Of a DNA stretch of 64,000 nucleotides, positions 19,816-49,756 are shown one piece after another. How positions within the stretch are numbered: position 1 is the first letter of the stretch; each line of letters starts with the position of its first letter. The notes under the pieces are model-generated. The model was not told where the DNA came from, did not search any database, and saw nothing but the letters and a program-made list of their open reading frames with translations. The position numbers were made by a program, and so were the translations under genes. This DNA comes from Nitzschia sp. DOCU1. Lineage: Eukaryota; Bacillariophyta; Bacillariophyceae; Bacillariales; Bacillariaceae. Location: positions 620,001 through 684,000 of the forward strand of contig OX595994.1 in the NCBI GenBank assembly GCA_951394045.1. Direction: 5' to 3'.

Positions 19816-19936
19816 TGCACTACGTCGTTTGTAGGATCGAAAAGGTTGTGAAAATTATGGCTAGGTTAAAAACTAGATGTATTTCTCATGCAAGTTGTCT
19901 CGTAGGCTCTCGTAGTTCTAGTAGAGTCGAGACCTT
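19816..19936 (-). repeat. 3' LTR, distal fragment of 121 bp
   Basis: These 121 bp are identical to 40434-40554 of the other LTR and end exactly where the 15.4-kb element begins. The last two bases, TT (19935-19936), are the target duplication of that insertion. Together with the 411 bp at 35361-35771 they make 532 bp, the same length as the intact LTR. Confidence 0.95.
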
Positions 19937-19958
19937 CATCAGAGGGCCGGCAAATGCA
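19937..19958 (+). repeat. Left terminal inverted repeat
   Basis: This 22-bp end matches the right end (35337-35358) in inverse orientation with a single difference at position 15 (C versus A). It directly abuts the TT duplication in the LTR. Confidence 0.93.
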
Positions 19959-20535
19959 CACCCCCATAATTTCAATTCTACCCCCTTTCCATGCCAGCAT
20001 ATTCTTGATACATATGCCTGCACTTGACATCGGCTCCAAATCCATATTAAGCCAGCCCTAAATGCGGCATATTCCGTGGCGAATATTCACCTCCAAAGTA
20101 GAATGCTGCATCCAAATTCACAACTAATGCAGCATCCCCATGTAAACATCTACATCAATGAAGCAGAATGCAATATCCAGACTCCACTTCCGTTATGCAC
20201 ACCCCGCACCCCCGCCATACCACCTTCCAATCTCATGTTAGCCTTCAATCTGTATCCATCAACACTAAACCCCACTTTGTGTACCTCATTCCCATGATTC
20301 AACCAACAATGCCCCCCCCCTAGGCATGACAATACCTCAATGCTGGAGGGGATCCCCACAATCCAATGTTGGTTCTCAAGTTTTCGCATCATCGCCTCAA
20401 TGCTGGACCCCATACCAACAATCCAATGCCGGTCCTCAAGTTTCACCCCTCTTGCATAACCATTCTAATCTAACCATAATGCTAATCCTGAACAGTCAAA
20501 CATTCCTTTCCATCTCCATTTATCATTATAGAACT
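19959..20535. other. Left subterminal region of the 15.4-kb element
   Basis: No gene. The plus strand is C- and A-rich, with C-runs (for example 20311-20320), while the opposite end of the element is G-rich on the same strand, giving mirror-like composition at the two ends. Two ~62-bp units beginning CCTCAATGCTGG (about 20335 and 20397) form a short tandem repeat containing CAATCCAATG and GTCCTCAAGTTT-like blocks. Subterminal repeats are typical transposase-binding regions in CACTA-type elements; that role here is inferred. Confidence 0.55.
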
Positions 20536-21757
20536 CTACACACCCACATCCATTAGCCGCATAAGTTTTGACATTCCATTTCTCACCTCCACTCGTCCTG
20601 CAAACTTCCTCTTGCTCTTACCCAAATCTTTCCTCTGTACTAATTTTTTCACTCTTTCATCAAAGGACTTCCTACTTCCCAACGCCAGTCTTTGTCTCTC
20701 CAGCACCGCAAAAACCAGATTGTACAATACCATAGCCTCATCCGACCATCCCGAATACTTGCCAGTACCCCTGGAGCAATCGGTGAAGCGGGAAGGAACC
20801 CCAGCACTACTTGGAGTTGCAGCCGTCAACCCACTAGTCAAAGTGGCACTATCTTCATTTCCCCACTTCCAGTATTCGTTCATGAATTTGTCATAGTTGT
20901 TCATATACAGCAACACAGCAAAACTTTCCATTGGTACTTCCACATATTCACTCAACAACTCCCAATGCGACCTTCCATATCTCCTCTGCCCTCTCCCGCC
21001 TGCATCTCTTTCAACAAAAACACTGACAAACTCAGCCCAGAACCTGGCATATTCCTCCTTACCCACACCCTCACCCAGACCCGTTCTTGACCAACGTTGT
21101 ATCTTAACCTCATCAAACTCATCTTCCTCCAAATCCTGCCCCTCCTGCGCATCCGCTTCCTGCTCTGTGCCGGACGACCCATCAGAGTTGTTAGGTGCAA
21201 CAGCCAACACTACTGGAAATCCTTAACAACCAAACATTCCCGTTAGTACACGATCTAGGAAAACACCCCCCATTCTTGAATGGTACTTACTCTGACTGTC
21301 CATATCCACTGGTATAAACATCTTTGGATCTGGAGGTTTCACCTTATCACCCTCCTCATTCACCGGTGGTTTCTCACAGTACTTTCTAAAGGCCACATTC
21401 AAGGCATTGTATAGTGTACTTCTTTTCCTTCTAACCGCCTCCTCATAGGAGGAACATCCGACAACAGACCAGAAATCCTCTGCATACTGGTCCGGCACAC
21501 CCACATCCTTACAAGCTGCCCTCTGTGCAACACTACCAAACTGCACGAGAACCATGGAATTAATAAACTGCATGTGGACAAATGCTTTCTCGTACACAAA
21601 GTTTTTGACATCATTTGACCACCTGGGGTAGTAGGTTCCTGCTAGCGCCTAAGCCGCCGTGACCATACAACAACAAGGTCAGTTGTCAATTACTCATATT
21701 CTACAAACAGCTATGACAATTTACCTCCTCAGATACGGCCAGTTGTTGTACTGCCAT
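20536..21757 (-). CDS. Transposon accessory protein, 358 aa, three exons
   Basis: Exons 21757-21725, 21648-21291 and 21221-20536 on the minus strand join in frame to 358 residues starting MAVQQLAVSEEALAGTYYPR. The introns are 76 and 69 bp; the second has donor GTAAGTACC. The N-terminal half is helical (WSNDVKNFVYEKAFVHMQF, then YAEDFWSVVGCSSYEEAVRRK). An acidic linker (EEDEFDEVK) follows, and the C-terminal third has GTGKYSGWSDEAMVLYNLV and a basic end (LGKSKRKFAGR). The KYxGWSDEA block is one I associate with small proteins found beside diatom transposases, but I cannot name a family. No catalytic motif is seen. A DNA-binding or accessory role in transposition is inference from its place beside the left terminal repeat. 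Confidence 0.72.
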
Positions 21758-22547
21758 TTTTCAAATAATATTGTGGTTCCGCCTTTCTTATGGTGTTTGC
21801 TGCTGCAGGGGGCTGCTCACAACACCACCGCTGCTCACAACACCACCACGGACTGGCAACACCACAAGCTTTCCCCCCACGTGTTTTCCATTCAAATCAC
21901 AGGCTTATGTCCATCAATTCAAAAGTATGTCTTCACGACATTACCCTCCTATTAATTTTCTATAGCATTCAACCTCTATGCCATACTAGCTCAATTCAAA
22001 ACATACTTTCCAAACCCCCACCGCTCCACTGCTAATTGTACCAGGCAGTCATCCAACGACAAGACCTGCCTTCTCACCTTTCCTCTTTTTTCCATGGGCA
22101 TATTTAAAACACCCAAGCCATTTTGGTGTCGCACCACGACACTGTCACAATTTCTCATTGTGTGACCTTTTTGTAATCTCACAAAAGGGCATATTTGAAC
22201 TGGGACACCTCAACCGGATTTTCCGTTCCATTTTAAGGATTATTAGTGCCATTCAAAGGATATTATTAGGACGGTGCAATTCCATTATTGCCTGATATTC
22301 TTGGTGTTGTAGGTACTAAAGAAAGGTACGGTAGAAACTGCTTATGTACTTACACCAGATAAAAAGGAAGCCATAACCGGATTAATGCAACCATGTAATT
22401 CGAATGATTTTACGAGGCAAACCTGCGCACAACCCATGATCGCTTGTTAATTTTTCCGTACTAATCTTACTGTGTTTTCAATTTTTATAAGCACAGGCTG
22501 CTAAATAGCATCACCCTTTAAATTTAATAGGTTTGATCGGCACCATC
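21758..22547. other. Noncoding spacer inside the element with promoter-like module
   Basis: It separates two genes that point away from each other (358-aa on minus, LRR on plus), so it should hold both promoters. It contains one copy of the repeated module seen elsewhere in the element: CATTGTGTGACC at 22156-22167, AAAAGGGCATATTT near 22184, and AAGGATTATTAGTGCC at 22235-22250. A short direct repeat GCTCACAACACCACC occurs twice near 21815-21845. Confidence 0.5.
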
Positions 22548-23752
22548 ATGCCATCGAACGTTTCAATTCTCTGTCGAAACTTACGACTTTTGTTGCCGTC
22601 ATTGTCCCCTTCCTCCCTAATAGTGGCAATGTCAATGCCACCATTACCACCGGCCCTACCTTTAAAGGTGTCCCTTCTCATCGGCAGCTACTGGGACTGC
22701 ATGCCCTACTTGGAGAGAATGATATTATATCGCGGAGTTGTAAAATTTTGTTACATTGACATCAAAGAGTCCACGATCAAAGAATGGGAGGAGCTTCTAT
22801 CTGTCCACCCATGGCTAGGGAAATATCCTATTGAGCTTAAATTCACCAACCCTGCGGGCGGCGGTGCTCCACGTGGTGGTGGTCCTCCATCTCGTTTTGC
22901 AACTTTAATGAAATACTTTCCATCCTTACAGACCATATCTCTACTGGATGGCGTCTTGAATCTAAACAACGAACAAAAAATAGCATCCTCCCTACTGCAA
23001 TGCACCCAAATCACACATCTGGAAATAGAATACTCCCACCACATAATGGTTGGCAATTCCCTCCCAAGTCACCCATGCATTCCCTGCTCTTGGCTACCGG
23101 CCTCCCTCGAGCAGCTAATCAAGCTGAAAACATTGTTAGTAGACGGCTACACAATTGGAGGAGCCGGTGGATTAAGATTTCTTCGTTCCATTTCAAAGCT
23201 CGCAAACCTGAACACGCTCATTATAAGCAATTGCAAGGTGGGCCAGAGCTGTCGCACGGTACTTGGCTCCACCCTCCAACACCTACCAAACTTGAAGTCA
23301 CTACACCTCGACTCTGTCAAACTATCACTGACTGGTGGTCAAGGCCTCTTGCACGGGGTGGTCACGATGCAAGAGCTTGCATTTCTTGACCTTGGGAGTT
23401 GTCGACTTGGTCATAGGGGGTTGGGTTGCATGTCCCTATCCTTTCACTGCCTTCCAAAATTGGCGGTGCTGATTCTCCAAGACAATAACCTAACATGTGC
23501 CGGGGCACACAAGTTACAGAAACATGTCCACCATCTTGTCGCTTTGGAAGAACTCAACTTGGAAGCAACAAGATCGGTCCAAATGGCATGCAAGCCATCA
23601 TGAACTTCATAGAAGGAAATGGTGCATCGGCCCTAAAGTACCTGTCCCTTGGCGATAACTTATTCGCCTGTGAGAAAAAGGAGGATGTAATGGTACGGTT
23701 GCACCGTCATTTGCCAGAGTTGCAAATTAAGTGGAGCCTTGATGTTGTTTAA
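22548..23752 (+). pseudogene. Leucine-rich-repeat protein with one-base frameshift
   Basis: The frame from the ATG at 22548 gives leucine-rich repeats of the ribonuclease-inhibitor style: LKTLLVDGYTIGGAGGLRFL, LNTLIISNCKVGQS, LKSLHLDSVKLSLTGG, LAFLDLGSCRLGHRGLG, LAVLILQDNNLTCAGAHKL, LEELNLE. It then runs off frame to a stop at 23603. The next repeat (LGSNKIGPNGMQAIMNF, then ALKYLSLGDNLFACEKK) continues in another frame to 23752. Restoring register needs one added base in the TTGG run near 23561, so a single G seems to have been lost. Intron or sequencing error are alternatives. LRRs of this kind bind proteins. It is unusual cargo for a DNA transposon and may be a captured host gene; the neighbouring genes of the element look intact. 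Confidence 0.78.
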
Positions 23753-23929
23753 TTCTAAAACAACCAGTCCACTTTTTCTTTTTGGTCCATTCTTTAGTAG
23801 AGAATACTTATCAAAAAAAAAGGTGACGGGCACGTGCGTACTTGTCTATTTTGTTCTTAATTTTTGGGTGGCGAAGTAACGGATTTTTGGGTAGCAAAAC
23901 ACTTCTTTCATCTGCACCACACGACCATC

Positions 23930-26900
23930 ATGGTGAACCCAAAAAGCAAAAGGTTCATGTGCGCAACGTGCCTCAAATGTTATAAAAGCCTCTCTTCACA
24001 CTACAACCAGAGTTGGAACTGTAATCCACGAACTAGAGGGCCATCTGCATCTTGGATGGGGGGCCGGCAAGCATTCGCAGCTGGTTCTCTACTTCAGCAG
24101 GTGCCCCCGCCACCCTCACTGGCAGGAGATCAGGAATTCGACAACTGTGGTATTCACATTCCTGACATGGCAGCTGAAGATGAGGAAGAGAGTGACGACG
24201 ACGGAGGTGGTAAACCTGCATCTGTTCCAGAACGACGCCTCCTTTCCCGTGTGCGCACACAGCGAGTATGCCTCCAGAAACCAACGACAGGTTCCAAAAG
24301 AACTAGCAATAAATCCGGCCCACGAGAAAGGTTGGAGAGGTACCAGGGCAAGACAGCTTGTATTCCATCTTTTGCTTCAGATTTGGACGGTGATAGCACA
24401 GATGAGGACAGCAACCACGGGGATGGCTGGGTCATTGAACACAACTTTCACCTAAACCAAAATCCGGACAGAAATGTTACCAAGCTCGGCAATTCCACGG
24501 CCACCGTGGGCAATAGTTTTGCATTGGCCTCCCAAGTGGACGGTCAACCTGATGCAGAAATGGAGTTGGGCACCATGGAAGAGAAACTGGCATCTGACCC
24601 ACCTGAAGACATATCATTCCCGCTCGATATCCAAGATTCCATGGAGTTTGTTGCTAACGCTTCTGATAGGTCGATGGCGGAGCTTTATGCTCTAACTGAC
24701 CAGGCTGGTGCTCCACGACATCTTATGGATGACATCATTTCAACAATGAAAAGAGAAAAGGAACAAAGAAATTTCAGTCCGTTCATGCCAGGTATCACAA
24801 CGAGAAAGCACTTTTTCAGTAGGGTGTCAAGGAAAACCAGCTATCAACCACCTTTTGGAATTAACATAACCTTGGAGTCTGGGCAAAAAGTGGTGGTTAG
24901 GAGATTTGACTATCTTAATGACCTAGAGGAGAAGTTGGTTTCAGAGGTGTATTCAAATCTGGACAATATCAGGTGCGACATGCGTCACCCCTTTGCCAAC
25001 ATCCCACCCCCGTTGGACGATAAACAGGCACCACATCTCCTCGACTTCAGCTGGTATAGGGATACTTACAACTCAAAATTCCTGCCTATGATAGGCGGAT
25101 CGCAGTTCGATCCCTGGTATCATCTGCTAACCTTATCATTCTATACTGATGCAACAAGTCGAGCACTGCGCTCCATTGAACCAGTCGCCTTGGTGGATTC
25201 ACGTCTTACCGATGTGGCTATTTCCCGGTCCTGTTTCCCGGTCGATGCATACTTTGTACAGGCACTGTCACAGGCGGCACTTGGTTGCACATATGGCTGT
25301 TTTGGTGTCGATAATGCTGATGTTAATGTCCCAGTGGATGATCAACCTCACATCAGGAACCTGATCAAAGCAAGGATGGGGGTTAGAGAAGGGAACGCCC
25401 TAGCCAAGAACATGACCATAAATGATGCCGTCAATCTGCCCAGCATACCTTTGAGCGAGAACCTTGATTCCTGGTTGCAATATCTGGACATATTTACAAA
25501 CAAGGTCAATAGGGATGCTGCCATTAAGGCTAGGGGGGTGCGGGAGAGGTTGTCAGAGTCTATTCTCAGACAAGTTTTTGGGAGTAAGGCTGTGGACAAC
25601 CCATTTGCCCGCTTACCGTATGGTGCAAACATCAATGGAATCCACTCAGTCACCACAGCAGACATCCTCCACACAATGAAGAGTGGTGTTATCCAACACT
25701 TTCTCAACCTTGTGATAGGACCAATGACCGATGGATCAAAGGCAGCAATTGACAGGCATGTGGAACAAATGTTTGCAAAAGGCTTAAACCGTTCCGGTGA
25801 GGCAAGCAATTACCCCCGGGTCTCCTTTCGTAAAGGATTTACCAAGCTTACTGAGCTTACAGGATCTGAACGTGTTGGTCAACTCTTCGTCCTTGCATTC
25901 TTATTGAGAACTAAGAAGGGCCGAAAACTGTTGTTACCAAGACTGGCCGCCAACTTTGACGAGAACAAGAATAAGAACAGGGATAAAACAGTTGCAGTTG
26001 AGGGAGCAAGTAGGAAACGCAAAAGGATTGCACCTGCTGCAGGCCCCCACGCAACAAGTATTGCAAATGCCGGAACAGGCTTGTCACGGGATGAGGCCCT
26101 GCAATTCCTGCGACTAGACAAACTTGTTGTTGAGATGGAGAAGGTACATAGTCTCCCCCACAACTTGCACGTCCGATTAGAAGAGGTTTTGAAAGAATTC
26201 TTAACCAAGGATTGCAGGCAGAAGCTGTACAAACACAAGACACGCATACTGCAATTGCCGATGGCGATATCCATGGATTACAGGTGTTCCATTGAACCCA
26301 CCGGCAGCCGGGTAGATCGGAACCACCATGAACAGTCTCAACAGGTGGTTATGTTTCCACCCTCAACTATTCACTTTGATTGTCAAACTGCAGGAGTGCA
26401 CCGCACCTGTACCCTGTCAATTGACCATCTATCCTATCTATGTGAAACTCTTCTAACATATTGGGCCTTTCTTGAATATGCAGACAGGGAGATGTTATCC
26501 ACTGAAAACATCTCAAGGGCATCCGCCAACCTTGAATTGATGCGAAGAGTTCTTGTAAATGGTACTAGCCGGGGATTTGGAACTAATGGATACTCTTATC
26601 AAAAGTTTATCGAGATGTTCCATCTACTCATGGAGACACCCGTCTATGGAAGGGCGAGTGGGAGAGACACCAATGATGGTGAAAGACACTTGAAGGTATG
26701 GGCAGTCCGTCCGGCCAAGACTGCACAAAAGAGGGACGATGGAACTTTCACAGGTCAGATTTCCATAAGGAGGGCGGAGAGCGAAGTCCTTGGGAAAATT
26801 CTGAAATCTAACAGAGTACAGAACCGGAAGGCCGGTGGTCAGCCTACTCATAATGGCAGCAAAAGCGTGGGTCGTTACCGTGTGCAATCTGAGAATGAAG

Positions 26901-27526
26901 GTACCTATTTGTCATTTAGAACAGGCAAAAACAAGGACATAAGCTTTGAGGTTGATCCTTTGATAGTCCATTGGTTATCAAATGAGACCCCTTTGCTGGA
27001 GGATGAGACAGCCGAGCCTATTTACATGTACACCAAGACAGAACTTGCGGACGGTTCCATCATACGTTGTCATCCTGACTTTGAAGGCAGGGGCCCCAGG
27101 TATGATTGTGTATCCATTCAAGAACAGTTGGGTGGTCAAATGATTATCCGGCCGGCCAGGGTGGTTGCATTGCTTCACATGCTAGATGAAGTCAACATTG
27201 GATGCGATGCACCGGCGAATGCTGCACTTGTGATGAAAGTTATTGAAAATGATGCTTCGCATGTGGACAACAGTCAATTGTTCCGGAAGTGGACGTGGGC
27301 AAGCGATAAAGTTGGTGATGTCTACCATAGTAGACTACACCTTGTTCCAATGACAAGCATCAAAAGAACAATCTATTGTATAGATGAGGTTCCTTGCCGA
27401 TCACTCACCAAACCAAGCCTCGATTCTTTCCGTACTTTGGAATGCCGCCACTTGCGCACTGAGTGGGCATCACAATTCTTGACCAAAAGTTCTTCCTACC
27501 TCCACAAGAAGATGCAGGGAATTTAG
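23930..27526 (+). CDS. 1198-aa zinc-finger protein, best transposase candidate
   Basis: Single exon; the first in-frame ATG is at 23930 (MVNPKSKRFMCATCLKCYKS). Residues ~10-32 hold a C2H2/C2HC finger (CATCLKCYKSLSSHYNQSWNC). An acidic disordered region follows, then a large folded part with RHLMDDIISTMKREKEQRNF, a DSRLTDVAISRSCFPVDAYF block, and a C-terminal part with FIEMFHLLMETPVYGRASG, DTNDGERHLKVWAVRPAKTA and YTKTELADGSIIRCHPDFEG. The zinc-finger start plus a late 'FHxLxE...GERxLK...A.KR' block and an 'IRCHPxxxGxGPxYD' block remind me of TNP2/Plavaka-type transposase proteins of plants, fungi and diatoms. I could not place a DDE triad with confidence. It is intact, which fits recent transposition. 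Confidence 0.7.
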   Translation: MVNPKSKRFMCATCLKCYKSLSSHYNQSWNCNPRTRGPSASWMGGRQAFAAGSLLQQVPPPPSLAGDQEFDNCGIHIPDMAAEDEEESDDDGGGKPASVPERRLLSRVRTQRVCLQKPTTGSKRTSNKSGPRERLERYQGKTACIPSFASDLDGDSTDEDSNHGDGWVIEHNFHLNQNPDRNVTKLGNSTATVGNSFALASQVDGQPDAEMELGTMEEKLASDPPEDISFPLDIQDSMEFVANASDRSMAELYALTDQAGAPRHLMDDIISTMKREKEQRNFSPFMPGITTRKHFFSRVSRKTSYQPPFGINITLESGQKVVVRRFDYLNDLEEKLVSEVYSNLDNIRCDMRHPFANIPPPLDDKQAPHLLDFSWYRDTYNSKFLPMIGGSQFDPWYHLLTLSFYTDATSRALRSIEPVALVDSRLTDVAISRSCFPVDAYFVQALSQAALGCTYGCFGVDNADVNVPVDDQPHIRNLIKARMGVREGNALAKNMTINDAVNLPSIPLSENLDSWLQYLDIFTNKVNRDAAIKARGVRERLSESILRQVFGSKAVDNPFARLPYGANINGIHSVTTADILHTMKSGVIQHFLNLVIGPMTDGSKAAIDRHVEQMFAKGLNRSGEASNYPRVSFRKGFTKLTELTGSERVGQLFVLAFLLRTKKGRKLLLPRLAANFDENKNKNRDKTVAVEGASRKRKRIAPAAGPHATSIANAGTGLSRDEALQFLRLDKLVVEMEKVHSLPHNLHVRLEEVLKEFLTKDCRQKLYKHKTRILQLPMAISMDYRCSIEPTGSRVDRNHHEQSQQVVMFPPSTIHFDCQTAGVHRTCTLSIDHLSYLCETLLTYWAFLEYADREMLSTENISRASANLELMRRVLVNGTSRGFGTNGYSYQKFIEMFHLLMETPVYGRASGRDTNDGERHLKVWAVRPAKTAQKRDDGTFTGQISIRRAESEVLGKILKSNRVQNRKAGGQPTHNGSKSVGRYRVQSENEGTYLSFRTGKNKDISFEVDPLIVHWLSNETPLLEDETAEPIYMYTKTELADGSIIRCHPDFEGRGPRYDCVSIQEQLGGQMIIRPARVVALLHMLDEVNIGCDAPANAALVMKVIENDASHVDNSQLFRKWTWASDKVGDVYHSRLHLVPMTSIKRTIYCIDEVPCRSLTKPSLDSFRTLECRHLRTEWASQFLTKSSSYLHKKMQGI

Positions 27527-28859
27527 TGTTTGAAAACAACTATGAATGTACGCTTGAAATTAGTATTACACAAACAAGAAGCACTGCATTCCTACTTTAA
27601 TCCATGAGTTATGTAGTACATCGAGCCCACAATATCCCCTTTGCGCGCACATGCGCATCATTACCTGGGTTGAGCTAGGTACCAAAATTCTAAACTATGA
27701 AGTCCACTCTCTCACAAGTCAGTAATGGTACTTCATTGAGTACATCCTTTCGATCCCAGCCAAATATTTTCAGGAAGTCAGCAGGGAAGGTTAGGATCCT
27801 AACTTTATGTTGTCGTGTATATGGCAGTTTTCAAATAAAGAGGCAGGTAAGATAGCAAAGTCACTGAGTGTTGCCTAATAATAGGCTGTGCACCTCCAAT
27901 ACAGCTCTATTCCAACATATTATCAATTCATCATATACATTTTGTAATTCAGCATCTAAAAATGCCTCGCTACGTATGAATGAGTTCCTGGGCCCAAAGA
28001 TATGGGTCTTTGAAGCGGGCTAGCTGAAACAAACACCCCATTTGTGCATTTGAATAAGTGGGTCCGTGTAATGGTAATAGGTAAACCACCATAGTTTGAC
28101 CTCATTAACAAATGCTTGTAATTACAACTGGAAGGTCAACAATATCAATTTAACTATACGTTTGATATCCGTTTGGTTGAGTAATGTTATGTCATAGAGT
28201 ACAAGAGACCATTGTTGTCCACCTAAAGTAACACTCCTCCTCCAATAAATCCTTAATCCACTATGTTATCAAGTTTCCAAGTTAGCATTTTAATTGCGCA
28301 TCTAACGAGTCCTTGCTATAATCAATCTTGTGCCTATGTCAAAAGATGTGTGATCTTAAAGACGGCCCCTAGAAATGGACCCCATATTCAAGGAAAAGGA
28401 AAAACGTGTCTGGCAATTGTAAAAGTTGTGCCCTGTTAGTTTGCCTACAGCAAACATTCCTCACAAATTTAACCAGCAGGTGAACGGCGTGAGTTCAATC
28501 ATACCATCTATATCGCTATTGTCGAGGAATGTTAGGTCAAAGAGTACCAAAGAACATTGTGGTCCCCAAAAAGCTACATTACTCCTTCAATAAAATCATA
28601 TCCCAAAATGTTATCAAATTACCATGTACGTGTCGCAAATCTTCATCTTATGACACCTTTCAATTTTGAAACAGATGCCTGCATGGAAAGATACGGCTAT
28701 GTAAAGTTGGGACTTTATTCTATAGTTTCCAAAAGTTGTTCCCATATGTGGATTATCGGCTACCAGTCAAGGATTATTAGTTCCCTCAAATGGATTTATT
28801 TATGATTAAGTGTAACTCTACAGTGGAAACGGTTCTATTGTTTGATCTTTAACCTTTAT
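27527..28859. repeat. Degenerate ~330-bp tandem repeats between the two large genes
   Basis: No gene. Three diverged units can be followed, centred near 27880-28020, 28180-28360 and 28515-28650. Shared blocks are a GTTAxGTCAxAGAGTAC motif, a CATTGTxGTCC motif, a CTCCTxCAATAAA motif, an ATGTTATCAA motif and a GCATCTAA-like motif followed by a region ending in TCTTxAAG. The spacing of about 330-340 bp is regular. One copy of the AAGGATTATTAGTTCC module occurs at 28769-28784. The genes on both sides converge here, so the array lies in a 3' region and may act as an insulator, terminator or binding array; this is speculation. Confidence 0.6.
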
Positions 28860-31800
28860 TCAAATACAGCCAATCAGTCCGCCATCCACCGTAGCCACCC
28901 CATTCCAGTCACCAACAAACCTTCCAATTGCATTCTCCAAACTCTCCCATTGACGCTCCTTGGATAAGAATTGTATCCAGGTTTTCTTGGTACCCTCTTT
29001 TACCCGGATGGGGGTATACAGTGCCCCGTCATTTGACCACAGAATGAGATCTTTTTTGCGGCGGTCATCCTCAGTAATCTGCCATCGGTGGAAAAGGCAG
29101 CAGCATTGGTCCAGCCAGGACATGGTTGCATAGACCGAATGTCGACGGAGGACACTTATTGTTTTGTTTGCAATGGCATTTGCCTCGGAGGTGGAAAGGG
29201 AGTCCCCGGTACTTTCACCTGCAAGGTATTCCACAGCCTTGTAGAAGCCTGATGATCCCTTAGTAAGCATTGCCCATGTAGCGTAGGGAAGGGGGATCAG
29301 CATAAGACATGCTGCCAACTGGATCCCCACACTTAACCTCACACATCCAAGTTGTATATTCTCGGTCACACGCTTGCCCAGTTTTTGCTTACGGTACTCG
29401 GCGGAGGTAAGCATCTGCAAGGCTTCCTGCTGTGACTGTTGGTTACCATTTAACAACTCAAATTGACTTGTCAAAAAACAAATGAAGAGTCCACAGTCCT
29501 TTCGGCTTTTGTCCAAACCCTTTGTATCAACATCGAACAACATCCGGTCAATTTTTTGGTACCGAAAGTCTTTACACGATATCACCCCGGAATGACCACG
29601 GTTGCCAATGACCTGAAGTGATAACCATTCGTATAAGGCCTCCACTCTTAAGTCTCTTAGAATGGTTTCCGTCTCGACCCGGCGCCCCTTATTCAACTCC
29701 TGTTCCATTAACCCGATGATCAGTGTTTGACCATTGCATTCTCTGGTGATGAATGCTACAAAAGATGCGGTGTGGCGGAAAGTGACGACTGGTGAGTACA
29801 TTCGCACAAAACGAGCCCAGACGTTGACAAATGATCCAATGTACCAAGACCGGTTGGCAGACTCTGGTATGGCTTGATGTTGGAACGGGTAGTCATATCC
29901 AACTGTCATTCGTGGGTTGAGGTTTTCGGAAAAGCGTTGGAAGTGCTGTGGTTGGTCCAGTTTGCTTGCATCCTGCCAGAAGTCAACCTCATTTAGTGCC
30001 ATCATTTCCTTGATGAGAGGGTCATCGATGTCGGCAAGTCCCTCCATCTGCGCTGCCTGAGAATCGTTAATTGACCGACCGTAGTTGACCACTGTGACAG
30101 AGGAGCCAACAAGGGGCACCTGGCTTGACAAGAGTTTGGAAATGTTTTCCTCCCTCTTAACATGGTTGCGCCAATCAATCTGTTTTGTCACGACCGTCAC
30201 TTGGTCTGAATGACCGACCTTTGCTCCGTTCATTGAGTCGAAATGTAGATATGCGCTACCTATCAAAACCGAAACGGCATCCGAAATTCGTAGACCAGTT
30301 GTGCATAGATTCCTTTGTTCCAACGAAAGAGACACAGGTAAAAGGAAATCTAACCACTCCTTGACCACCTTTAGACGGGTATTGTCATTGCGGCTCTGGC
30401 GATCATATTCGGCTAGATGCCCCACCATAATCTCCAAAATCTGGTGGTGAGCGATCACATTCAGCCTAAAGAGGGCACTCCGGTAGGAATCGGACAGGAT
30501 TTTGGAACTTGCGAATAGACCTGGGGTTGCGACACCAACCCCATTGGCCCGCTTCCAAGACTGGCCTGCTCTTGGACAACTACCATTGTGCTGTGCGATA
30601 ACATTGCGGAAGGAGTCTATGCTCGAATTGTCGATCATCTCGTCTGCATGCGAGAGAAGGCTGTCCATCGCCCAGTCGAGCTGAACCAGGTAGGAGCAGC
30701 CGAGCAGGGAAGCAGGCATCTTGATGAGAGACCCCAGTGCTTTGTCTTGAATACCGGCAACATCATGAGTGTTGATCACACAGGGTCGGTTGCTATTGAG
30801 GAACAAATGGTCGACATTGTTTGCCATGATTTCTGGTGTAATGTTGTACCTCTTGGCGAACTCTTCTAAGAAGCCTCGGCCCGACACCGTGTGCACCTTC
30901 TCTCGCAAACCGAACCAAAGGGTGCACGAGATTTTGTCCGATTTTTCAACCCAGTAGCTCTCAGGCCCGAAATTGCTTTTTATCAATTGCTCGTTGGCGA
31001 GGCGGAAATTGCGACGCAGCATGGTCGATGACATCTTTTGGTCCCGTGGTAGAATGGCCAGCGTCCCCTTTGGTCCCGAGGTTGAGTCGGCCATCTTCAT
31101 TTCTTTTTCGATTGTGCGGTTGACAGCATCATGATCTCCCTGCATCATCTTGGCCTTTGTTGGGCGATCGTTGTGGCGTGGGTTTGATGGAGGTTTTACA
31201 ACCCGGTCTTTCTTGGTTTCCCTCTCTTGCCATTCACAGCTAGAGCCGTCATCACAGCTCTGATTGTCTTCATCGTCATCCGGGATAACACCGGTCCACC
31301 AATCGGTCTTCACTGCCCGCTCGACAGCAGACCTGGCTGGCGAGCGCAATGACAGGGACTGGCAACACATGCGCCTTGGACGCAGGTACAAATGGCAAAA
31401 AGGACAAGTCACTTGATCCCTGCTATTATTTACAAGGTTGGCTGGTTGTGCCTCAGGCACATCGCTGGCCTCGCGACGACTTAGGCAGAGAAAACGGCAC
31501 CTTAAAGTAGCATCAGGGAAGCATAGCGGGAGCAATTCGTAGAGTAGTGAAGGTTTGGTGACGCAGGTAGTCTCCAGGAGTTCTTCCACCTCGCTCCTTA
31601 GGACACCGTTGGGCAGTACCCCATCGTCCTTTCCTAGCAATTTAAGATCCAAGCTGTCGGTAACTCTTTTGAGCACCATCTCCTCTTCCTGATCCGGTCG
31701 CAGAAATCGTAAAAGGAAATGACATTCCAGAAATGGAGTCCAATTCTCGAAGATCCTCTGCAAAATTGGGAAGGAGAGGGGTAGGTACACTCGACCTCCC

Positions 31801-32582
31801 TTCGGCATCCGGCCCGATGCCAAGTCAGGAAGGAAACTTTGACAAAAATCTCTGCTAATGATGCCCAACAAATACTCCGATGGCATCCAAATGTAGTCAA
31901 CGTAAACCTCGTTGAAGATAAGCTCGGGTGGGAACGGCTTTGCCCGTCGGTAGCTCGTCAGGTCCATGTCATAGTGGAACCTGGAATTGGTAGGATTGCG
32001 ATTGACAGTGTAAACCCGCCGTTGAATTCCATCGTTTTCAGTTGCAACAATCCGCGCTTCATCTCGTATCCGCTGCCGTAGGGAGGATGGTAGCTTTGTC
32101 GCCTCTTGGTACAAAGTTTCAATATTTCGAACATAGCCAGGGCGTTCCATTCCGATGTAGAGGATGTTGTAGTCGCGACGAGGGGGTTTTCGTCCATTAC
32201 GAAGCCTTCTCATGGACGCATTTTTCTTTTCCCGGTTACATTTGTACCGAGTTGAAAGTTCGTCGTAAACAAATTGATGTAGTACCAATAGTTTAGGATC
32301 GCGGCTGTGGAGGAAGGTTGTTTCTTGGACATCAAGGGATTCTGCTCGTTGGTTTGCTGTGACGATGATTGTGTCAGCGCCAATCGAGGATGTTGGAAGA
32401 AGAACTTTTTTGTTAAAAAAGAACACAAGGGCTCGCCGTTGATCGGTCTCTTGTGTGTATACGGCGCTGATTGCACGATAAATAAAGCTCCTCTTAGTAA
32501 GGTGGATAGAGGCGACGCCTTGAACATCCACAGAAAGGGTCGGCTCGGTTCGACCACCCGAGCGTTTGTAGGATGAGGTCAT
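28860..32582 (-). CDS. 1240-aa uncharacterised transposon protein
   Basis: Intact single exon from a true ATG at 32582. I do not recognise the family. The N-terminal ~150 residues end in a basic stretch (MRRLRNGRKPPRRDYN). Residues ~390-420 contain a cysteine cluster, VTCPFCHLYLRPRRMCCQSL, that could bind zinc. An acidic linker (PDDDEDNQSCDDGSS) and a basic segment follow. The C-terminal ~650 residues look folded, with YLVQLDWAMDSLLSHADEM, LCTTGLRISDAVSVLIGSAY and GLFICFLTSQFELLNG. TGLRISD resembles the first box of tyrosine recombinases and FRHTAS the second, but the spacing and the missing histidine make that unsafe. It faces the dioxygenase gene across a 650-bp intergenic stretch with repeated modules. 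A role in transposition is inferred from location only. Confidence 0.7.
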   Translation of the reverse strand: MTSSYKRSGGRTEPTLSVDVQGVASIHLTKRSFIYRAISAVYTQETDQRRALVFFFNKKVLLPTSSIGADTIIVTANQRAESLDVQETTFLHSRDPKLLVLHQFVYDELSTRYKCNREKKNASMRRLRNGRKPPRRDYNILYIGMERPGYVRNIETLYQEATKLPSSLRQRIRDEARIVATENDGIQRRVYTVNRNPTNSRFHYDMDLTSYRRAKPFPPELIFNEVYVDYIWMPSEYLLGIISRDFCQSFLPDLASGRMPKGGRVYLPLSFPILQRIFENWTPFLECHFLLRFLRPDQEEEMVLKRVTDSLDLKLLGKDDGVLPNGVLRSEVEELLETTCVTKPSLLYELLPLCFPDATLRCRFLCLSRREASDVPEAQPANLVNNSRDQVTCPFCHLYLRPRRMCCQSLSLRSPARSAVERAVKTDWWTGVIPDDDEDNQSCDDGSSCEWQERETKKDRVVKPPSNPRHNDRPTKAKMMQGDHDAVNRTIEKEMKMADSTSGPKGTLAILPRDQKMSSTMLRRNFRLANEQLIKSNFGPESYWVEKSDKISCTLWFGLREKVHTVSGRGFLEEFAKRYNITPEIMANNVDHLFLNSNRPCVINTHDVAGIQDKALGSLIKMPASLLGCSYLVQLDWAMDSLLSHADEMIDNSSIDSFRNVIAQHNGSCPRAGQSWKRANGVGVATPGLFASSKILSDSYRSALFRLNVIAHHQILEIMVGHLAEYDRQSRNDNTRLKVVKEWLDFLLPVSLSLEQRNLCTTGLRISDAVSVLIGSAYLHFDSMNGAKVGHSDQVTVVTKQIDWRNHVKREENISKLLSSQVPLVGSSVTVVNYGRSINDSQAAQMEGLADIDDPLIKEMMALNEVDFWQDASKLDQPQHFQRFSENLNPRMTVGYDYPFQHQAIPESANRSWYIGSFVNVWARFVRMYSPVVTFRHTASFVAFITRECNGQTLIIGLMEQELNKGRRVETETILRDLRVEALYEWLSLQVIGNRGHSGVISCKDFRYQKIDRMLFDVDTKGLDKSRKDCGLFICFLTSQFELLNGNQQSQQEALQMLTSAEYRKQKLGKRVTENIQLGCVRLSVGIQLAACLMLIPLPYATWAMLTKGSSGFYKAVEYLAGESTGDSLSTSEANAIANKTISVLRRHSVYATMSWLDQCCCLFHRWQITEDDRRKKDLILWSNDGALYTPIRVKEGTKKTWIQFLSKERQWESLENAIGRFVGDWNGVATVDGGLIGCI

Positions 32583-33231
32583 GTTTGGAAAGGATTATGT
32601 GAGCCTTCAAACGGATTTTCTGTGATGGTGTTGGGCTGCTGCCGCATCCTGGACCCTGCATACCAGGATAGAGATGGGTCGATTCGATTCATTCCACTCA
32701 CCAAAAATGATTTCGTGGTAGGTTTTCTACACGGGTAGGTGGATTAGACACTTCTGCAGTACTGAGTAAAAACTTGTCTCGACGGCTCATTGTGTGACCG
32801 TTTAGAAATCGATGAAAGGGCGTATTAAATTAATGGGTCTACGATTGGCTGATTTTATTTCCTTTGTATTATCGTGTCTGTGGCGTTGGTTGGATAATCG
32901 GTTACCTTGAGAGGATTATGTGTTCCTTCAAACGGATTTTCTTGACTAGCTCGAATAGTGTGGTGGATAGGACAGTGGGCATATGTGATTATTTTGGCAG
33001 CCGTTTTCATTGGTGGGATCAGGTGGATAAATCCTCTTTGATTGGATACCGTATTTCAAAAGATGGAACCGGCCCATTGGGTGACCCTTCAGAAATCATT
33101 GCATGGGCATATCAAAATTTGAGAAGTCTGATTGGTTGTTGTGTTGGAGCCGTTGCTTGGCGAAGAAGGTTGTTGGAATAGAAGCAAAGGGTAAGTGATG
33201 AATTTGTTGTGGCAGTCGTTGTAGATTGAAA
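32583..33231. promoter_or_regulatory. Divergent promoter region with duplicated modules
   Basis: This gap separates the 1240-aa gene (minus) from the dioxygenase gene (plus). It holds a degenerate tandem duplication of about 0.3 kb. The first unit has AAGGATTATGTGAGCC and CTTCAAACGGATTTTC (32590-32620), then CATTGTGTGACCG (32788-32800) and GAAAGGGCGTATT. The second has GAGGATTATGTGTTCC and CTTCAAACGGATTTT (32911-32940), then CATTGGGTGACCC (33075-33087) and CATGGGCATATC. Similar blocks occur upstream of the LRR gene at 22156-22250 and near 28769. The repeated use of the same pair of motifs between the element's own genes suggests shared promoter or transposase-binding modules. Confidence 0.55.
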
Positions 33232-34224
33232 ATGGAGGAGGCAGTTGCACCACCCGTCCCAGCTGTGGGGGCACCACAGGATTTTATTACCGATTACCCT
33301 AGGCGGTATTTCAATTTCCGTACACAGGTTGTCTTGCATGGCAAGAGTAAAGGTCGAAGATTGAGGCAGATGTTGCTGCAGAAACGAGAAGAATTGAAAG
33401 ACCGGTCGCTGAAGCTGGAAGCTGGAAGAGATGTTGCTCACGAGATTGGTTTCCTTTTCGGCTCATGGATGGCAAACAAGCTGTCAAGCAGGACGGTTAG
33501 GCGAGATACAAAGAAAAAGGTGGAGTTGCCCGATGGTTCTGTCAAATATAGGAGATTGCGATACGATAATTGGGAGGACGAGTTCAAGGATCTTGGGTTT
33601 ATTTTGTTGCACGATGTTTTCGATGAAGATGGGCTGACAGCAATCCGCAGTGAATTATTTGATAGGAGCAGGAAGAAGGCTCGACAAGGTGATGAATTCA
33701 AGTGGGAGACCATGTTTAACGGAGCGGTCAGTCGAAAATATCTGTTTGAGCAAAAGGCAAGTGGGCGATGGGGGATAAAGTTGGATGGTTGCCCGGTCAC
33801 TTCGGGTTTCATCGATGGACTGAAGGAGGTCATGGGGTGGTTGGAGAGACGGTATTGTGATGTTGCGTACATCAAGCCTTTCAAGAATCAAGCTGCTATT
33901 GCCGCTGGGAAGAAGGATCCAGAGTTGCACGTGGATATGGATACGGACGAGCTCGAGACGACCAGGTGGGGGTGTCCGGAATATCCCATCGTGATATTTT
34001 TAAACCTCGACAATGGCAAGATGTTGAAAATTTGGCATCAGAAACTTGGTGGTACTAGGGGGCGGCACGGAAGTCCCTACCTAATGGAGGTCCCTCCAGG
34101 TGCTGTTCTTATATGGGATCCCACCAAGTTCAAGCATGCTACAGCTGCCATAATGGCAGATCCAACCTATACAGACCCACCTCACCGGGTGAATATATTA
34201 TTGCATGGAGTGGGAGGATTGTAG
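33232..34224 (+). CDS. Predicted 2-oxoglutarate/Fe(II)-dependent dioxygenase, transposon-encoded
   Basis: Intact single exon, 330 residues from the ATG at 33232. The C-terminal 130 residues show the double-stranded beta-helix signature: an HxD pair (H233, D235 in ELHVDMDTDE), strand YPIVIFLNLDNGKML, the turn VPPGAVLIWDP, the distal iron histidine in KFKHATAA (H302), and an arginine in PHRVNILLHG (R319) at the place where these enzymes bind 2-oxoglutarate. The N-terminal part is basic, and RYDNWEDEFKDLGFILLHDVFDEDGL resembles the lead-in helix and strand of prolyl-hydroxylase/PhyH-type oxygenases. The substrate is unknown. TET/JBP enzymes of this superfamily accompany KDZ transposons in fungi, so a DNA-base-modifying role is an attractive guess, but the TET/JBP signature is not demonstrated. 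AATAAA-like signals follow the stop. Confidence 0.75.
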   Translation: MEEAVAPPVPAVGAPQDFITDYPRRYFNFRTQVVLHGKSKGRRLRQMLLQKREELKDRSLKLEAGRDVAHEIGFLFGSWMANKLSSRTVRRDTKKKVELPDGSVKYRRLRYDNWEDEFKDLGFILLHDVFDEDGLTAIRSELFDRSRKKARQGDEFKWETMFNGAVSRKYLFEQKASGRWGIKLDGCPVTSGFIDGLKEVMGWLERRYCDVAYIKPFKNQAAIAAGKKDPELHVDMDTDELETTRWGCPEYPIVIFLNLDNGKMLKIWHQKLGGTRGRHGSPYLMEVPPGAVLIWDPTKFKHATAAIMADPTYTDPPHRVNILLHGVGGL

Positions 34225-34331
34225 TAAATAAATTAAATAAAGAATAGATTGAGCTAGTTCTTTATTACTAGTATTAATGTTGTGGTACTGTCCGGTAGGA
34301 TCGTTGGAGACCGTTGATTAGTGGATGATAC

Positions 34332-34727
34332 TTACTTAGTTTGGTTGGTAGGTGCCACAAAGTTGTGAACTTCTGTTATATGAAGGGACATAGCAAGGCT
34401 GCGGTCTGCTTGCATTTGGGGTGTCTGGTTGATGGCGCTTTCTGGGTTTTTCTTCTTTTGCTGGGCTGTTCCATGAAGCCACTGTGATATAGTAGATTGG
34501 TTGGGTTCATGTGGAGTATGAGTCTTTTTCTTGGTATAAGAAGAGCGCCATTTGCGGTAGTGCGAGCGGACTTTGATTCTTCCCCGTTTGTTGTTGTTCG
34601 TGGTGGCCACAGGGGCGGTCATGTCACGGAGACGCTTTGCTAATTCCGATAGGGGAAGCTGCGGAAATCCCTCTGCATCGAAGTAGGTATCTTCTGGGTC
34701 TTGGGTAATGTTGTTGGGAGTCGGCAT
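34332..34727 (-). CDS. Small basic hypothetical protein of the transposon
   Basis: Frame of 131 residues from an ATG at 34727. The sequence is polar with a basic middle (NNNKRGRIKVRSHYRKWRSS, then KKKTHTPHEP) and no recognisable domain. The last codons run into AA|GTAAGTATC, a perfect-looking splice donor, so the real protein may continue in a further exon that I could not define. It lies tail to tail with the dioxygenase gene. A DNA-binding accessory role would fit but is not shown, and the frame could also be chance. Confidence 0.35.
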   Translation of the reverse strand: MPTPNNITQDPEDTYFDAEGFPQLPLSELAKRLRDMTAPVATTNNNKRGRIKVRSHYRKWRSSYTKKKTHTPHEPNQSTISQWLHGTAQQKKKNPESAINQTPQMQADRSLAMSLHITEVHNFVAPTNQTK

Positions 34728-35336
34728 TTGGTGGCAGGCAGTGGGCGATTTGTGTGTAGTAGGAAGTTGAGGAGTGGGTTTTGTCTTTTATGCCACAATG
34801 ATATTGGGCGTGAAAAACTTGCGGCAGGGATTACCGTTGATATAGGATTGGCAGTTGATGGGGCGTGTAAGTGAGTTGCAACGGTAGCATTTGAGATGGA
34901 TTGCTAGATAGAATTTGGAAAGAGGATGGGAATTTCACGTTAGAGGGCCAAGTTGGAAGGGCAGTTCCTAAAGTTGAGAGAATCTGGAATTTGCTTATGG
35001 GGACTGGGAGGTTGACATAGGAATGCGGGGGGTTGGTCCAATCTTTATGGTTACATCATAGGTTGGATGCACGGGTAGTCGATGTGGTTCAGGATTAGAG
35101 TACTGGGTTGAAAGTGTGGATGATGAATGTGAAAGGGAATGTTGGTGCGATGTCGGATTTGAGGGCAGACTTTGAATGTGTGGCATGGATGCGACGTGGT
35201 TCGGGAGATGAGGGTGGCATGAGGGGGGGGGGGATATGATTTGTTCCTAATTGAGGATTGGGGGGCAATATTGTGGAGTGGGATTCTTAAGTCAAATCTA
35301 TAGGGCATACCTAATTTAAATTCAATAGTACGAGAT
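34728..35336. other. Right subterminal region of the 15.4-kb element
   Basis: No supported gene. The plus strand is G-rich with a G-run at 35224-35233, the mirror image of the C-rich left end. Short frames on the minus strand are proline/serine-rich translations of this skew. Possible transposase-binding region by analogy with other large TIR elements. Confidence 0.5.
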
Positions 35337-35358
35337 TGCATTTTCCGGCCCTCTGATG
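35337..35358 (-). repeat. Right terminal inverted repeat
   Basis: Reading inward on the minus strand it begins CATCAGAGGGCCGGAAAATG, matching the left end with one mismatch in 22 bp. It is followed by TT (35359-35360), the target duplication, then the rest of the LTR. Confidence 0.93.
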
Positions 35359-35360
35359 TT

Positions 35361-35771
35361 TGACATGCATCGACAACAATCCGAACAGGAGGTTGATGCC
35401 TCTTGTAGTAGACTAGCTACGACGTTGTACTAGGGTTCTTTGGACGTCGTCAGCTACTCTGGAATAAAGTATAGCTACCTCGATGTCATCGAGGTGCCAG
35501 ATCTTAGGTGGCATTGACACTAGGATCTCATCGGCATTCGACTAGCTGGAGTCATGCGCGATGCCTGCGTCATGCAACGTCACGTCGTCGGTGACGTCAA
35601 TAGGTTATGGGCCTTGTCCGACGATGTCCGAGACCGGCCTAGCGTTCGCGTCCGCGCGCAACGCTTTCGTCATGCTACGTCATCACACATGATGTCACAC
35701 ATGACTAAATAGACTAATATTATTGGACTACAATCATTCGAAGGAGTCGACGTGTAAAGCAGTGTACTGCA
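35361..35771 (-). repeat. 3' LTR, proximal 411 bp
   Basis: Matches 40555-40965 of the intact LTR; the single difference I noticed is C versus T in ATGATGTCACAC / ATGATGTTACAC (near 35696). It contains a palindromic TGACGTCA at 35592-35599, a CRE/bZIP core, also present in the other LTR. The LTR ends in TGCA on the plus strand and is bordered by the polypurine tract. Confidence 0.95.
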
Positions 35772-35798
35772 CCCGCCCCCATGATGGAGGGACAGGAC

Positions 35799-40433: not shown

Positions 40434-40965
40434 TGCACTACGTCGTTTGTAGGATCGAAAAGGTTGTGAAAATTATGGCTAGGTTAAAAACTAGATGTAT
40501 TTCTCATGCAAGTTGTCTCGTAGGCTCTCGTAGTTCTAGTAGAGTCGAGACCTTTGACATGCATCGACAACAATCCGAACAGGAGGTTGATGCCTCTTGT
40601 AGTAGACTAGCTACGACGTTGTACTAGGGTTCTTTGGACGTCGTCAGCTACTCTGGAATAAAGTATAGCTACCTCGATGTCATCGAGGTGCCAGATCTTA
40701 GGTGGCATTGACACTAGGATCTCATCGGCATTCGACTAGCTGGAGTCATGCGCGATGCCTGCGTCATGCAACGTCACGTCGTCGGTGACGTCAATAGGTT
40801 ATGGGCCTTGTCCGACGATGTCCGAGACCGGCCTAGCGTTCGCGTCCGCGCGCAACGCTTTCGTCATGCTACGTCATCACACATGATGTTACACATGACT
40901 AAATAGACTAATATTATTGGACTACAATCATTCGAAGGAGTCGACGTGTAAAGCAGTGTACTGCA
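40434..40965 (-). repeat. Intact 5' LTR of the Ty3 element
   Basis: 532 bp, TG...CA, in direct orientation with the split 3' LTR. It is flanked at 40966-40969 by CTAC, matching CTAC at 19812-19815. Carries the same palindromic TGACGTCA core near its right end. It serves as the promoter LTR for minus-strand transcription. Confidence 0.95.
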
Positions 40966-40969
40966 CTAC

Positions 40970-48000: not shown

Positions 48001-49756
48001 GGGCTATTTCCTCCACGACCTTGGCACGCTTTTGTAATACCGCCTTTGTACTCACAGATCTGGTGGTGAGATCAGGCCTGGCCTCCCTGAAATTGTCAAC
48101 AAGCCAAATAATGGATCGCTTCATAAAAGCCGAGCCACTCGTTTTACCAAGCTTTAATGCCTTGCGTAAATACGCCAGGACCCACTTGTTTGCAACCATG
48201 GCCATGGCGTTCCGGACTGCACCCCGAATAGCATTTATATCGTTTGAGCTAACGGCTCGCACATTTTCTAGATTCTGGAGCCAAGTGGTCGTTATGAGGG
48301 GGTCTTCCGTTTCCAAGAGCATCGCCGCAAAATCGACCTTGATTAACGGCAGATCGCTTTCTTCTGTACCCACAACGTCCGTCCCGTCCGCGACGGCGTT
48401 CTCGGTCACGTCGGTCTCCAGAATACTCCACCACCAGTCGTCGCTTGAACGATCCGCCAAAATCAACTTGAGTAAACCGAGATGCGCTTCGCCAAGAAAC
48501 ACAGGTGGCGAGTTGAAGAAGTCGCTGTCCGATAAGTTGGAGGGTGGCTTATAAATCAAGCACTCGACAAAGTCGTCCAGAGAAATGGGATTCACATTTA
48601 GATTTCTAGAAAAGGTGGACAAGAAATCCCACACGGCAAGGACCTCCGGCATGCAGTGTTGTGGCAAACCTGGGAATGCATCAATATCGGGGATTCTAGC
48701 CGCCGGGCAGTTTGTAGGTCGGACTTCCTTGCGTTGAGATTTACTTTGATCGTCTTCCTCTTGCAGAAGCAAGTCGTCAATCGGATACTTGGAGTCTTTC
48801 TCGTCAGTGAGAAAGTCATCGAGCTGCTTTCGGGCTTTGGTGTGCTGTCTCCGAAGTTTCTCCAGCTCTTTCCGAAGCCTCTTCTTCTCATTGTCGATTT
48901 CACGAGATGTCGCTTTTCGCTTCTTCATTCCGGCAGCCTTCTTGCCACCTGCAGATCTAGCGGGAGTCGCCAGCAAATTCAGAAACTTTCCAACTTCCAC
49001 CATGGAACGGAAGCGCTTGCCCTGCTCATTGTAGTAGTTGGTGTCGTACCGACCATCCGACGGCTTTCGTGTGACACGGCAACGATAATTTTCTACCGCT
49101 CGTCTATCTCCACCATTTTCTTCAATGTACGCGAAGAGGTTTTCCATTGCTCGTTCTTCGCGCTCGCCTAGGGTAACATCTTCCAAAGACTTACTGGATG
49201 ATGATTTAGAAGGGGGACGTCGTTTTGTTCGCGAATCATCGCCATTTTCCTCTGGTTTGCGCTTTTTGGAACTCGCTCCTTCTCCTGGGGTGTACTCCCT
49301 TGCAGCGACGGCTAAAGACTCATCTTTTTCACCGAGCCAGCTGGCCACCTGGTCCAACTGCGACTTGGCGGTCTTTGCATGTTTCGTTTTCCTGTAGTTA
49401 AAAACATAGCAGGGAATAGTGAGCCTTTATTGAACCAGATGTGCGGCGTCGCCCTGCCGTTTCGCAAGCCCCCAACTCAACACTCAAAAAGTGACTCACG
49501 ACGCGATCCAATAAAGTACGTACCGATAAATGTGCCGACTATAGACACCACCAATATCTTTTGCGAAGTCCTCCCACCCATGACGACCATAACGATAAGC
49601 CTCTTTATCTAGCTTTTCCCCGACGGCTCCCAAAGAACCATGAAAATGCTCAGCATCGGGCAATTCCCAGGCTTTGCCAAGAATTTTCCCCATGCGTCGC
49701 AATGCTTTTAGTCGCTTCTTTTCCTTTTCAGGATCGTCTTCTTTAAACTCGCTCAT
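45002..49756 (-). CDS. DDT/WHIM-domain chromatin-remodelling factor with MBD-like region
   Basis: Two exons, 49756-49524 and 49391-45002, give 1540 residues; the 132-bp intron (GTACGTAC donor, TACAG acceptor) restores frame from MSEFKEDDPEKEKKRLK into KTKHAKTAKSQLDQ. About residues 179-219 form a region like a methyl-CpG-binding/TAM domain (CRVTRKPSDGRYDTNYYNEQ, then RFRSMVEVGKFLNL). A coiled coil follows, and residues ~325-390 match a DDT domain (MPEVLAVWDFLSTFSRNLNV, then LDDFVECLIY). Further on come WHIM-type motifs (LSPQQRLCILRVLIDGAYDT; TDPLGADRFRNLLWRFENTE) between long charged coiled coils. DDT-WHIM proteins are the non-catalytic partners of ISWI remodellers (Acf1/BAZ type) in the nucleus. 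No PHD or bromodomain is visible, unlike animal BAZ proteins. Confidence 0.87.

Follow-up and report, generated by a model that had tools for sequence, protein, structure and literature searches.

A probable Plavaka-group transposon with a putative three-gene core in the genome of a Nitzschia diatom

A stretch of 64,000 nucleotides of the Nitzschia sp. DOCU1 genome (contig OX595994.1, positions 620,001 to 684,000; hereafter the window) contains a mobile element of 15.4 kb, and the question it raises is to which group of elements it belongs and which of its genes serve its movement. An earlier, sequence-only reading of the window had hinted at a CACTA/Plavaka-like group while stating that the contents matched no element that could be named. 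Analysis of the genome (52.08 Mb in 63 contigs, the window lying on contig C10) leads us to the view, to which we assign a probability of roughly 0.87, that the element is a recently active cut-and-paste transposon from the Plavaka group (its ends point to PlavakaB), with a large partner gene and a dioxygenase-like gene as parts of its machinery. The earlier hint is borne out and can be refined to PlavakaB-type ends and duplications together with a Plavaka-type transposase, and the contents can be named at least for one of the large proteins, which is probably that transposase.

The boundaries of the element are known to the base because it combines inverted ends, a TT duplication and an empty site in a sister long terminal repeat (LTR). 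The terminal repeats are complementary at 21 of 22 nucleotides (95%), with a single mismatch, and the 14-bp motif CATCAGAGGGCCGG with which they begin is present in the window at the two element ends only, even when one mismatch is tolerated (shuffle mean, 0.01). The element sits in one LTR of a retrotransposon whose two LTRs are themselves bordered by a 4-bp duplication, CTAC. When the two flanks of the element are joined, they match the uninterrupted LTR across 535 columns, and TT is found once in that LTR and twice at the element. The 22-bp repeats with one mismatch, the TT flanks with an empty site in the same window and the base-exact boundaries, all of which the sequence-only reading had claimed, were confirmed.

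The element belongs to a family of eight copies, seven of which have both ends. The 14-bp motif has 16 exact matches in the genome (none for the reversed control), and the 22-bp end pattern is found at 15 exact ends, which make up seven pairs in convergent orientation, with one end left unpaired (control, none); five further matches to this pattern with two to three mismatches were left outside the copy count, and at the 16th exact match of the shorter motif, on contig C3, the sequence of the element is not continued. The end pairs enclose 15957, 10665, 15600, 15422, 22224, 7425 and 20384 bp. An origin of the ends by chance or by assembly mis-joining was considered and rejected, given the shuffle mean of 0.01, the empty controls and the 15 exact genomic ends. 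Besides insertions and deletions, seven copies aligned to the reference copy C1b differ at four sites in total (2073, 2637, 5166 and 15679), a count made over aligned blocks of at least 60 bases, which leaves out, among other pieces, the last ~50 bases of copy C12, and with copies C1a, C5 and C12 partly covered. The larger differences are of several kinds: copy C12 has large internal deletions; copy C11 (L015-L017, C11:401389-423612) carries a nested LTR retrotransposon whose 318-bp LTRs are 99.4% identical; copies C5, C17 and C1a contain 200 Ns each; and in copy C17, 4,584 bp are repeated on either side of the N gap, which we take for a scaffolding artefact. A 2-bp duplication flanks five of the seven pairs (TT at C10, TG at C5, AC at C11, AT at C12 and AT at C17). 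The sequence-only reading had pointed to further copies with the same ends, and to TT-type duplications beside them, as the way to examine its element; the seven additional copies at other sites, nearly identical in sequence, show that it is neither a singular structure nor an assembly join. In the copy flanks (15 stretches of 60 bases, one partly Ns), the hexamers TAGTAG/CTACTA occur nine times, against 0.0009 per base in the remainder of the window, and a target preference is possible, though the sample is small.

The long gene on the plus strand is predicted to encode a Plavaka-type transposase. In copies C1b and C11 its frame is 1340 amino acids long, and P0001, a protein from a collection outside this genome, corresponds to this longer version with a later start. 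The window copy is unable to make a complete transposase because a 357-bp net in-frame deletion replaced 123 residues by four and removed the conserved second Asp. The same deletion is found in copies C1a, C6, C10 and C17 (copy C5, with an N gap there, and copy C12, in which the region is absent, were not scored), and a 10-bp filler at the deletion repeats sequence found nearby. The Pfam family Plavaka (PF18759) is returned for P0001 (E-value 2.6e-4), for P0002 (3.3e-4) and for L046 (1.6e-3), all below the curated cut-off, and the best stretch of P0001, residues 392-459, lies inside the part that is missing from the window copy. Among six more relatives, three score above the cut-off of 26.3 bits (L039, 31.0; L044, 31.5; L045, 27.7), L047 stays below it with 21.5 bits and two give no match; L039 is linked to the window transposase by an E-value of 7.6e-15. 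Across the whole genome, eight of ten PF18759 matches exceed the cut-off, and none of 14 control genomes contains a match. Ten related proteins were aligned, and wherever a row extends over P0001 position 365, 473, 655 or 995 the acid is retained, with the exception of Ile at 995 in one fragment. These presumptive catalytic acids are present in the longer version and in its relatives, and position 473 (D473) is lost in the window copy only. Protein searches place relatives of 26-34% identity on several contigs. The loci L039-L045 form an additional group of Plavaka-like transposases, several of them above the Pfam cut-off and four nearly identical to each other. The claim that neither of two genes of about 1200 codons could be assigned is therefore revised for one of them by PF18759 and by the conserved acids.

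The other long gene and the dioxygenase-like gene can be judged through a second family of elements. Its end motif, CATCAGGAAAGGGAAAA, was first seen at C5:1432645, where by eye the element adjoins coding-like sequence, and a genome search recovered 38 exact occurrences of it plus one that deviates by a mismatch (none for the control). Of these 39 ends, 26 form 13 convergent pairs, and every pair is flanked by a 2-bp duplication. The pairs at C11:1994349-1998966 (4.6 kb) and C11:2014602-2030087 (15.5 kb) have identical flanks, so that the pairs represent 12 independent sites; the two look like a duplicated region or a haplotype copy, one of them perhaps internally deleted. Five pairs contain the partner gene (C4:2113839, C5:96956, C5:1432645, C11:1949699 and C14:1029357), all five also contain the dioxygenase-like gene (in one case with an in-frame TGA), and for four of them a transposase is among the protein matches listed. 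The order and orientation of transposase, partner and dioxygenase-like genes are those of the window element, at a protein identity of 24-34%. Between members of the second family, the ratio of nonsynonymous to synonymous substitution rates amounts to 0.09 in both of the pairs compared for the partner (773 C-terminal codons), to 0.11 for the transposase, and 0.27 and 0.29 for the dioxygenase-like gene. Because the same arrangement recurs in the second family and the genes are under purifying selection there, the two formerly unassigned genes appear, from sequence comparison, to be a conserved core of the element. Their joint recurrence corrects the earlier view of the contents as unmatched genes and cargo, the dioxygenase-like gene being the one of 332 codons. 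Three second-family elements (L046, L047 and L048) have inverted arrays of tandem repeats of ~73 and 117 bp inside their ends.

The partner reaches 1599 amino acids, counted from stop to stop, in the second family. Over its C-terminal part it is 53% identical to the metagenome protein P0004 (1229 amino acids), relatives of 25-26% identity are found on contigs C4, C5, C11 and C14, together with weaker pieces, and beyond the two families there are weak fragments only, on contig C9. The strong constraint on this gene suggests a function in the movement of the element. The possibility that the partner is a TET-like dioxygenase was tried and rejected: HxDxMN is conserved, in P0004 as well, and no conserved second His was seen at the spacing of 2-oxoglutarate (2OG) enzymes.

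It is the product of the shorter gene that quite probably belongs to the 2OG-Fe(II) dioxygenases. In all four proteins that cover the region, HxD is followed at a distance of 69-71 residues by a His and this, 14-17 residues further, by an Arg; the proteins are otherwise ~32% identical to the protein of the window. HxD, H and R in that order are the pattern of this class, and the assignment is based on this motif. A relation to TET/JBP was not found among the Pfam matches or by profile comparison with PDB sequences, and we do not class the predicted protein as TET/JBP. Similar genes also lie outside end pairs. Second-family loci at C4:2136514 and C16:12996 stand beside single ends, the locus at C8:2096791 has no matched end within ~4.6 kb, and fragments are present at C8:67427. 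Pieces that are ~50% identical to the protein of the window and contain a TGA (C11:2276277-2277094 and C42:13602-14419) are possibly remnants of a third family.

Features of the window element and of its insertion site (positions in the window)
Feature	Positions	Strand	Remarks
Element, 15.4 kb (15422 bp)	19937-35358		Terminal inverted repeats at both ends; empty site
Left terminal inverted repeat, CATCAGAGGGCCGGCAAATGCA	19937-19958	+	22 nt
Right terminal inverted repeat, CATCAGAGGGCCGGAAAATGCA	35337-35358	-	22 nt, as read on the minus strand
Target-site duplication TT, left	19935-19936		Flank compared with empty site
Target-site duplication TT, right	35359-35360		Flank compared with empty site
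Hit LTR, first piece	19816-19936		121/121 match to sister LTR
Hit LTR, second piece	35359-35772		413/414 match to sister LTR
Sister LTR of the hit retrotransposon, uninterrupted (empty site)	40434-40966		TT single, at 40553-40554
Two consecutive open reading frames, 141 and 228 amino acids, no assigned kind	20536-21648	-	
Leucine-rich-repeat open reading frame	22509-23603	+	Genome matches
Predicted Plavaka-type DDE transposase, defective here	23861-27526	+	Stop-to-stop frame of 1221 amino acids
Deletion of ~178 bp, approximate site	28737-28740		Absent from the other aligned copies; lies where the transposase and partner genes converge
Partner gene, no assigned function	28860-32594	-	1240 amino acids from first Met
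Putative 2OG-Fe(II) dioxygenase gene	33202-34224	+	Frame of 340 amino acids; H243xD245, H312, R329
Small open reading frame, 151 amino acids	34332-34787	-	

The remaining genes of the element behave differently from the core. Of the 39 genome matches of the leucine-rich-repeat frame, seven are copies of the window element and the other 32 are weak, and none lies inside the 13 second-family end pairs. The frame ends at 23603, and by eye a similar reading appears to resume just after this in another frame (whole region, 22509-23870); the continuation seems to be an intron or a frame change common to the family. Matches of the 228-residue frame near the left end are confined to the seven window-family copies that have a left end. 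The leucine-rich-repeat gene and the left-end frames look like family-specific additions. The earlier estimate of at least five apparently intact genes stands in part, with the transposase, damaged by its deletion, and the interrupted leucine-rich-repeat frame to be subtracted.

Several observations weigh against the Plavaka reading and against the roles proposed for its companions. The window family's own transposase scores 20.7 bits with PF18759, below the cut-off, and copies of this family are absent from the ten whole-genome matches; in the ten-protein alignment, the motif C(2)C is present in four rows and H(3-4)H in eight, at varying places between the second D and the last E. Aligned to that of the window, the second-family transposase is only 19% identical. 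At C11:1949699, the remaining pair with a partner gene, evidence for the transposase is limited to ~150 bp of DNA similarity, and eight of the 13 second-family pairs (1.5 to 15.5 kb) contained none of the three genes in the searches made. The estimates of selection all come from the second family. Neither the partner nor the dioxygenase-like protein has a significant relative in Pfam or the PDB by domain scans and sequence searches (PDB searches with both large proteins and two profiles gave best E-values of 0.79, 0.76, 1.1 and 0.17, none convincing), and AlphaFold models had mean predicted local distance difference test scores of 30 for the 735 C-terminal residues of the partner, run with one homologue, and 34 for the 340-residue protein, run as a single sequence. 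No 2-bp duplication flanks the pairs C1b and C6; Ns lie ~30 bp beyond one end of C6, which suggests a possible scaffold join on that side. Finally, the copies fall into different groups by site 15679 than by the 357-bp deletion, which makes recombination among them, or mis-joining, likely.

The inconsistency of the C(2)C motif leaves room for a diverged CACTA/EnSpm element that shares the chemistry of Plavaka as a neighbouring lineage, the more so as the Plavaka and EnSpm transposases are alike and are placed in one clade in the sections of PMC12730594 on which we draw. According to the same sections, PlavakaB families have CATCA..TGATG ends and duplications of 2 or 3 bp. Such ends are found at all seven window-family pairs and all 13 second-family pairs, the latter having been found by that motif, and are not the CAC.. 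ends expected of CACTA/EnSpm; the duplications are of 2 bp in five and 13 pairs, respectively, and a 3-bp match is seen in none of the seven and one of the 13. Since the Pfam scans of these proteins, moreover, yielded Plavaka but nothing from EnSpm, we regard the CACTA/EnSpm assignment as unlikely.

It is equally improbable, in our estimate, that the element picked up its partner and dioxygenase-like genes from the host as passengers, which may be the case for the leucine-rich-repeat gene. That gene (its weak matches aside) and the left-end frames are indeed confined to the window family, and dioxygenase-like loci do lie outside end pairs (C4:2136514, C16:12996, C8:2096791, C11:2276277 and C42:14051). 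However, the two genes keep their order and orientation across 24-34% protein identity, they occur together in five of five partner-bearing pairs under purifying selection, and the partner is represented outside the two families by the weak C9 fragments only. The size of 15-16 kb and the unassigned large proteins could also suggest a proviral or Polinton/Starship-like giant mobile element instead of a cut-and-paste transposon. The 2-bp duplications and the DDE transposase argue against this; among the seven open reading frames scanned, Pfam identified neither a polymerase or integrase nor a capsid or tyrosine recombinase, and no relatives were found in the scans of viral contigs. Such an origin is, to our mind, very improbable indeed. 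The Plavaka assignment with a three-gene machinery remains the reading we prefer.

If the Plavaka reading is correct, the DDE transposase would bind the CATCA..TGATG ends, excise the element and reinsert it with a 2-bp duplication, as expected from its family and from the duplications observed. Since copies with the 357-bp deletion occupy several sites, they were most likely mobilised in trans by full-length copies, or else the deletion may have spread by gene conversion. The deletions, one of them with filler from nearby sequence, resemble the products of interrupted gap repair after excision. In plant En/Spm, the protein TNPA works beside TNPD, and by analogy the partner would most likely assist the transposase in end binding or assembly. 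The putative dioxygenase, in turn, would most likely counter host silencing by oxidising a DNA or chromatin mark, an idea modelled on what has been proposed for TET/JBP genes carried by transposons of fungi. What was observed directly is the structure of the element, its copies, ends and duplications, the gene order and the selection in the second family; all biochemical steps are inferred. It is a tentative proposal, and one we hold to be rather less likely than not to be right in full, that the core of these diatom elements contains an anti-silencing 2OG-Fe(II) dioxygenase of a new lineage apart from fungal TET/JBP and a new large protein required by the transposase.

Other repeats are found to the right of the element. 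Two adjacent direct copies of ~1.49 kb, 99.6% identical, occupy 41452-44427 of the window and adjoin a large minus-strand open reading frame at 45002-49357, and tandem repeats with a period of ~96 bp, 76-83% alike, lie at 61905-62337.

The diatom origin that the sequence-only reading had guessed is supported by the silicon transporter family PF03842, to which the genome has 18 matches, each of them above the cut-off (best E-value 8e-181); one of 14 control genomes had a match, below the cut-off. In the literature searched by title and abstract opening, with subscription journals and Repbase outside its scope, no description of Plavaka in diatoms was found. The elements described here are well-delimited Plavaka elements in a diatom, probably with a core of three genes. 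The presence of a Plavaka transposase beside a dioxygenase-like gene so far from fungi suggests either repeated origins or an old age for this pairing, and the anti-silencing idea becomes testable outside fungi. Because near-identical copies and an empty site are available, the element is also a candidate for a transposition tool in diatoms.

Among known systems, the CACTA/EnSpm elements of plants have a related DDE transposase and a machinery of two proteins, TNPD and TNPA, and differ in their CACTA ends and 3-bp duplications; they are not known to carry a dioxygenase-like gene. The fungal PlavakaB elements are closer, sharing the CATCA..TGATG ends, the 2-bp duplications and the Plavaka transposase, and some of them carry a TET/JBP dioxygenase gene where the diatom elements carry a dioxygenase-like one, the TET-carrying families all falling within PlavakaB (PMC12730594, in the sections used here). 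The host in our case is a diatom, the dioxygenase-like protein has no TET/JBP similarity detectable in the searches made, and a large conserved partner is present that is unmentioned for the fungal elements in those sections (PMC12730594). In Amoebidium, giant repeats that reach 50 kb likewise combine a Plavaka transposase with a very large repeat, but they are described, in the portion of the report cited, as tandem clusters of intron-poor genes with many tyrosine recombinases, for which the scanned reading frames of the window gave no Pfam match (PMC11244446). In the green alga Auxenochlorella, elements of the EnSpm-Plavaka group, for which the cited part of the description gives neither gene content nor ends, are potentially active cut-and-paste transposons, a parallel within an alga (PMC12636532).

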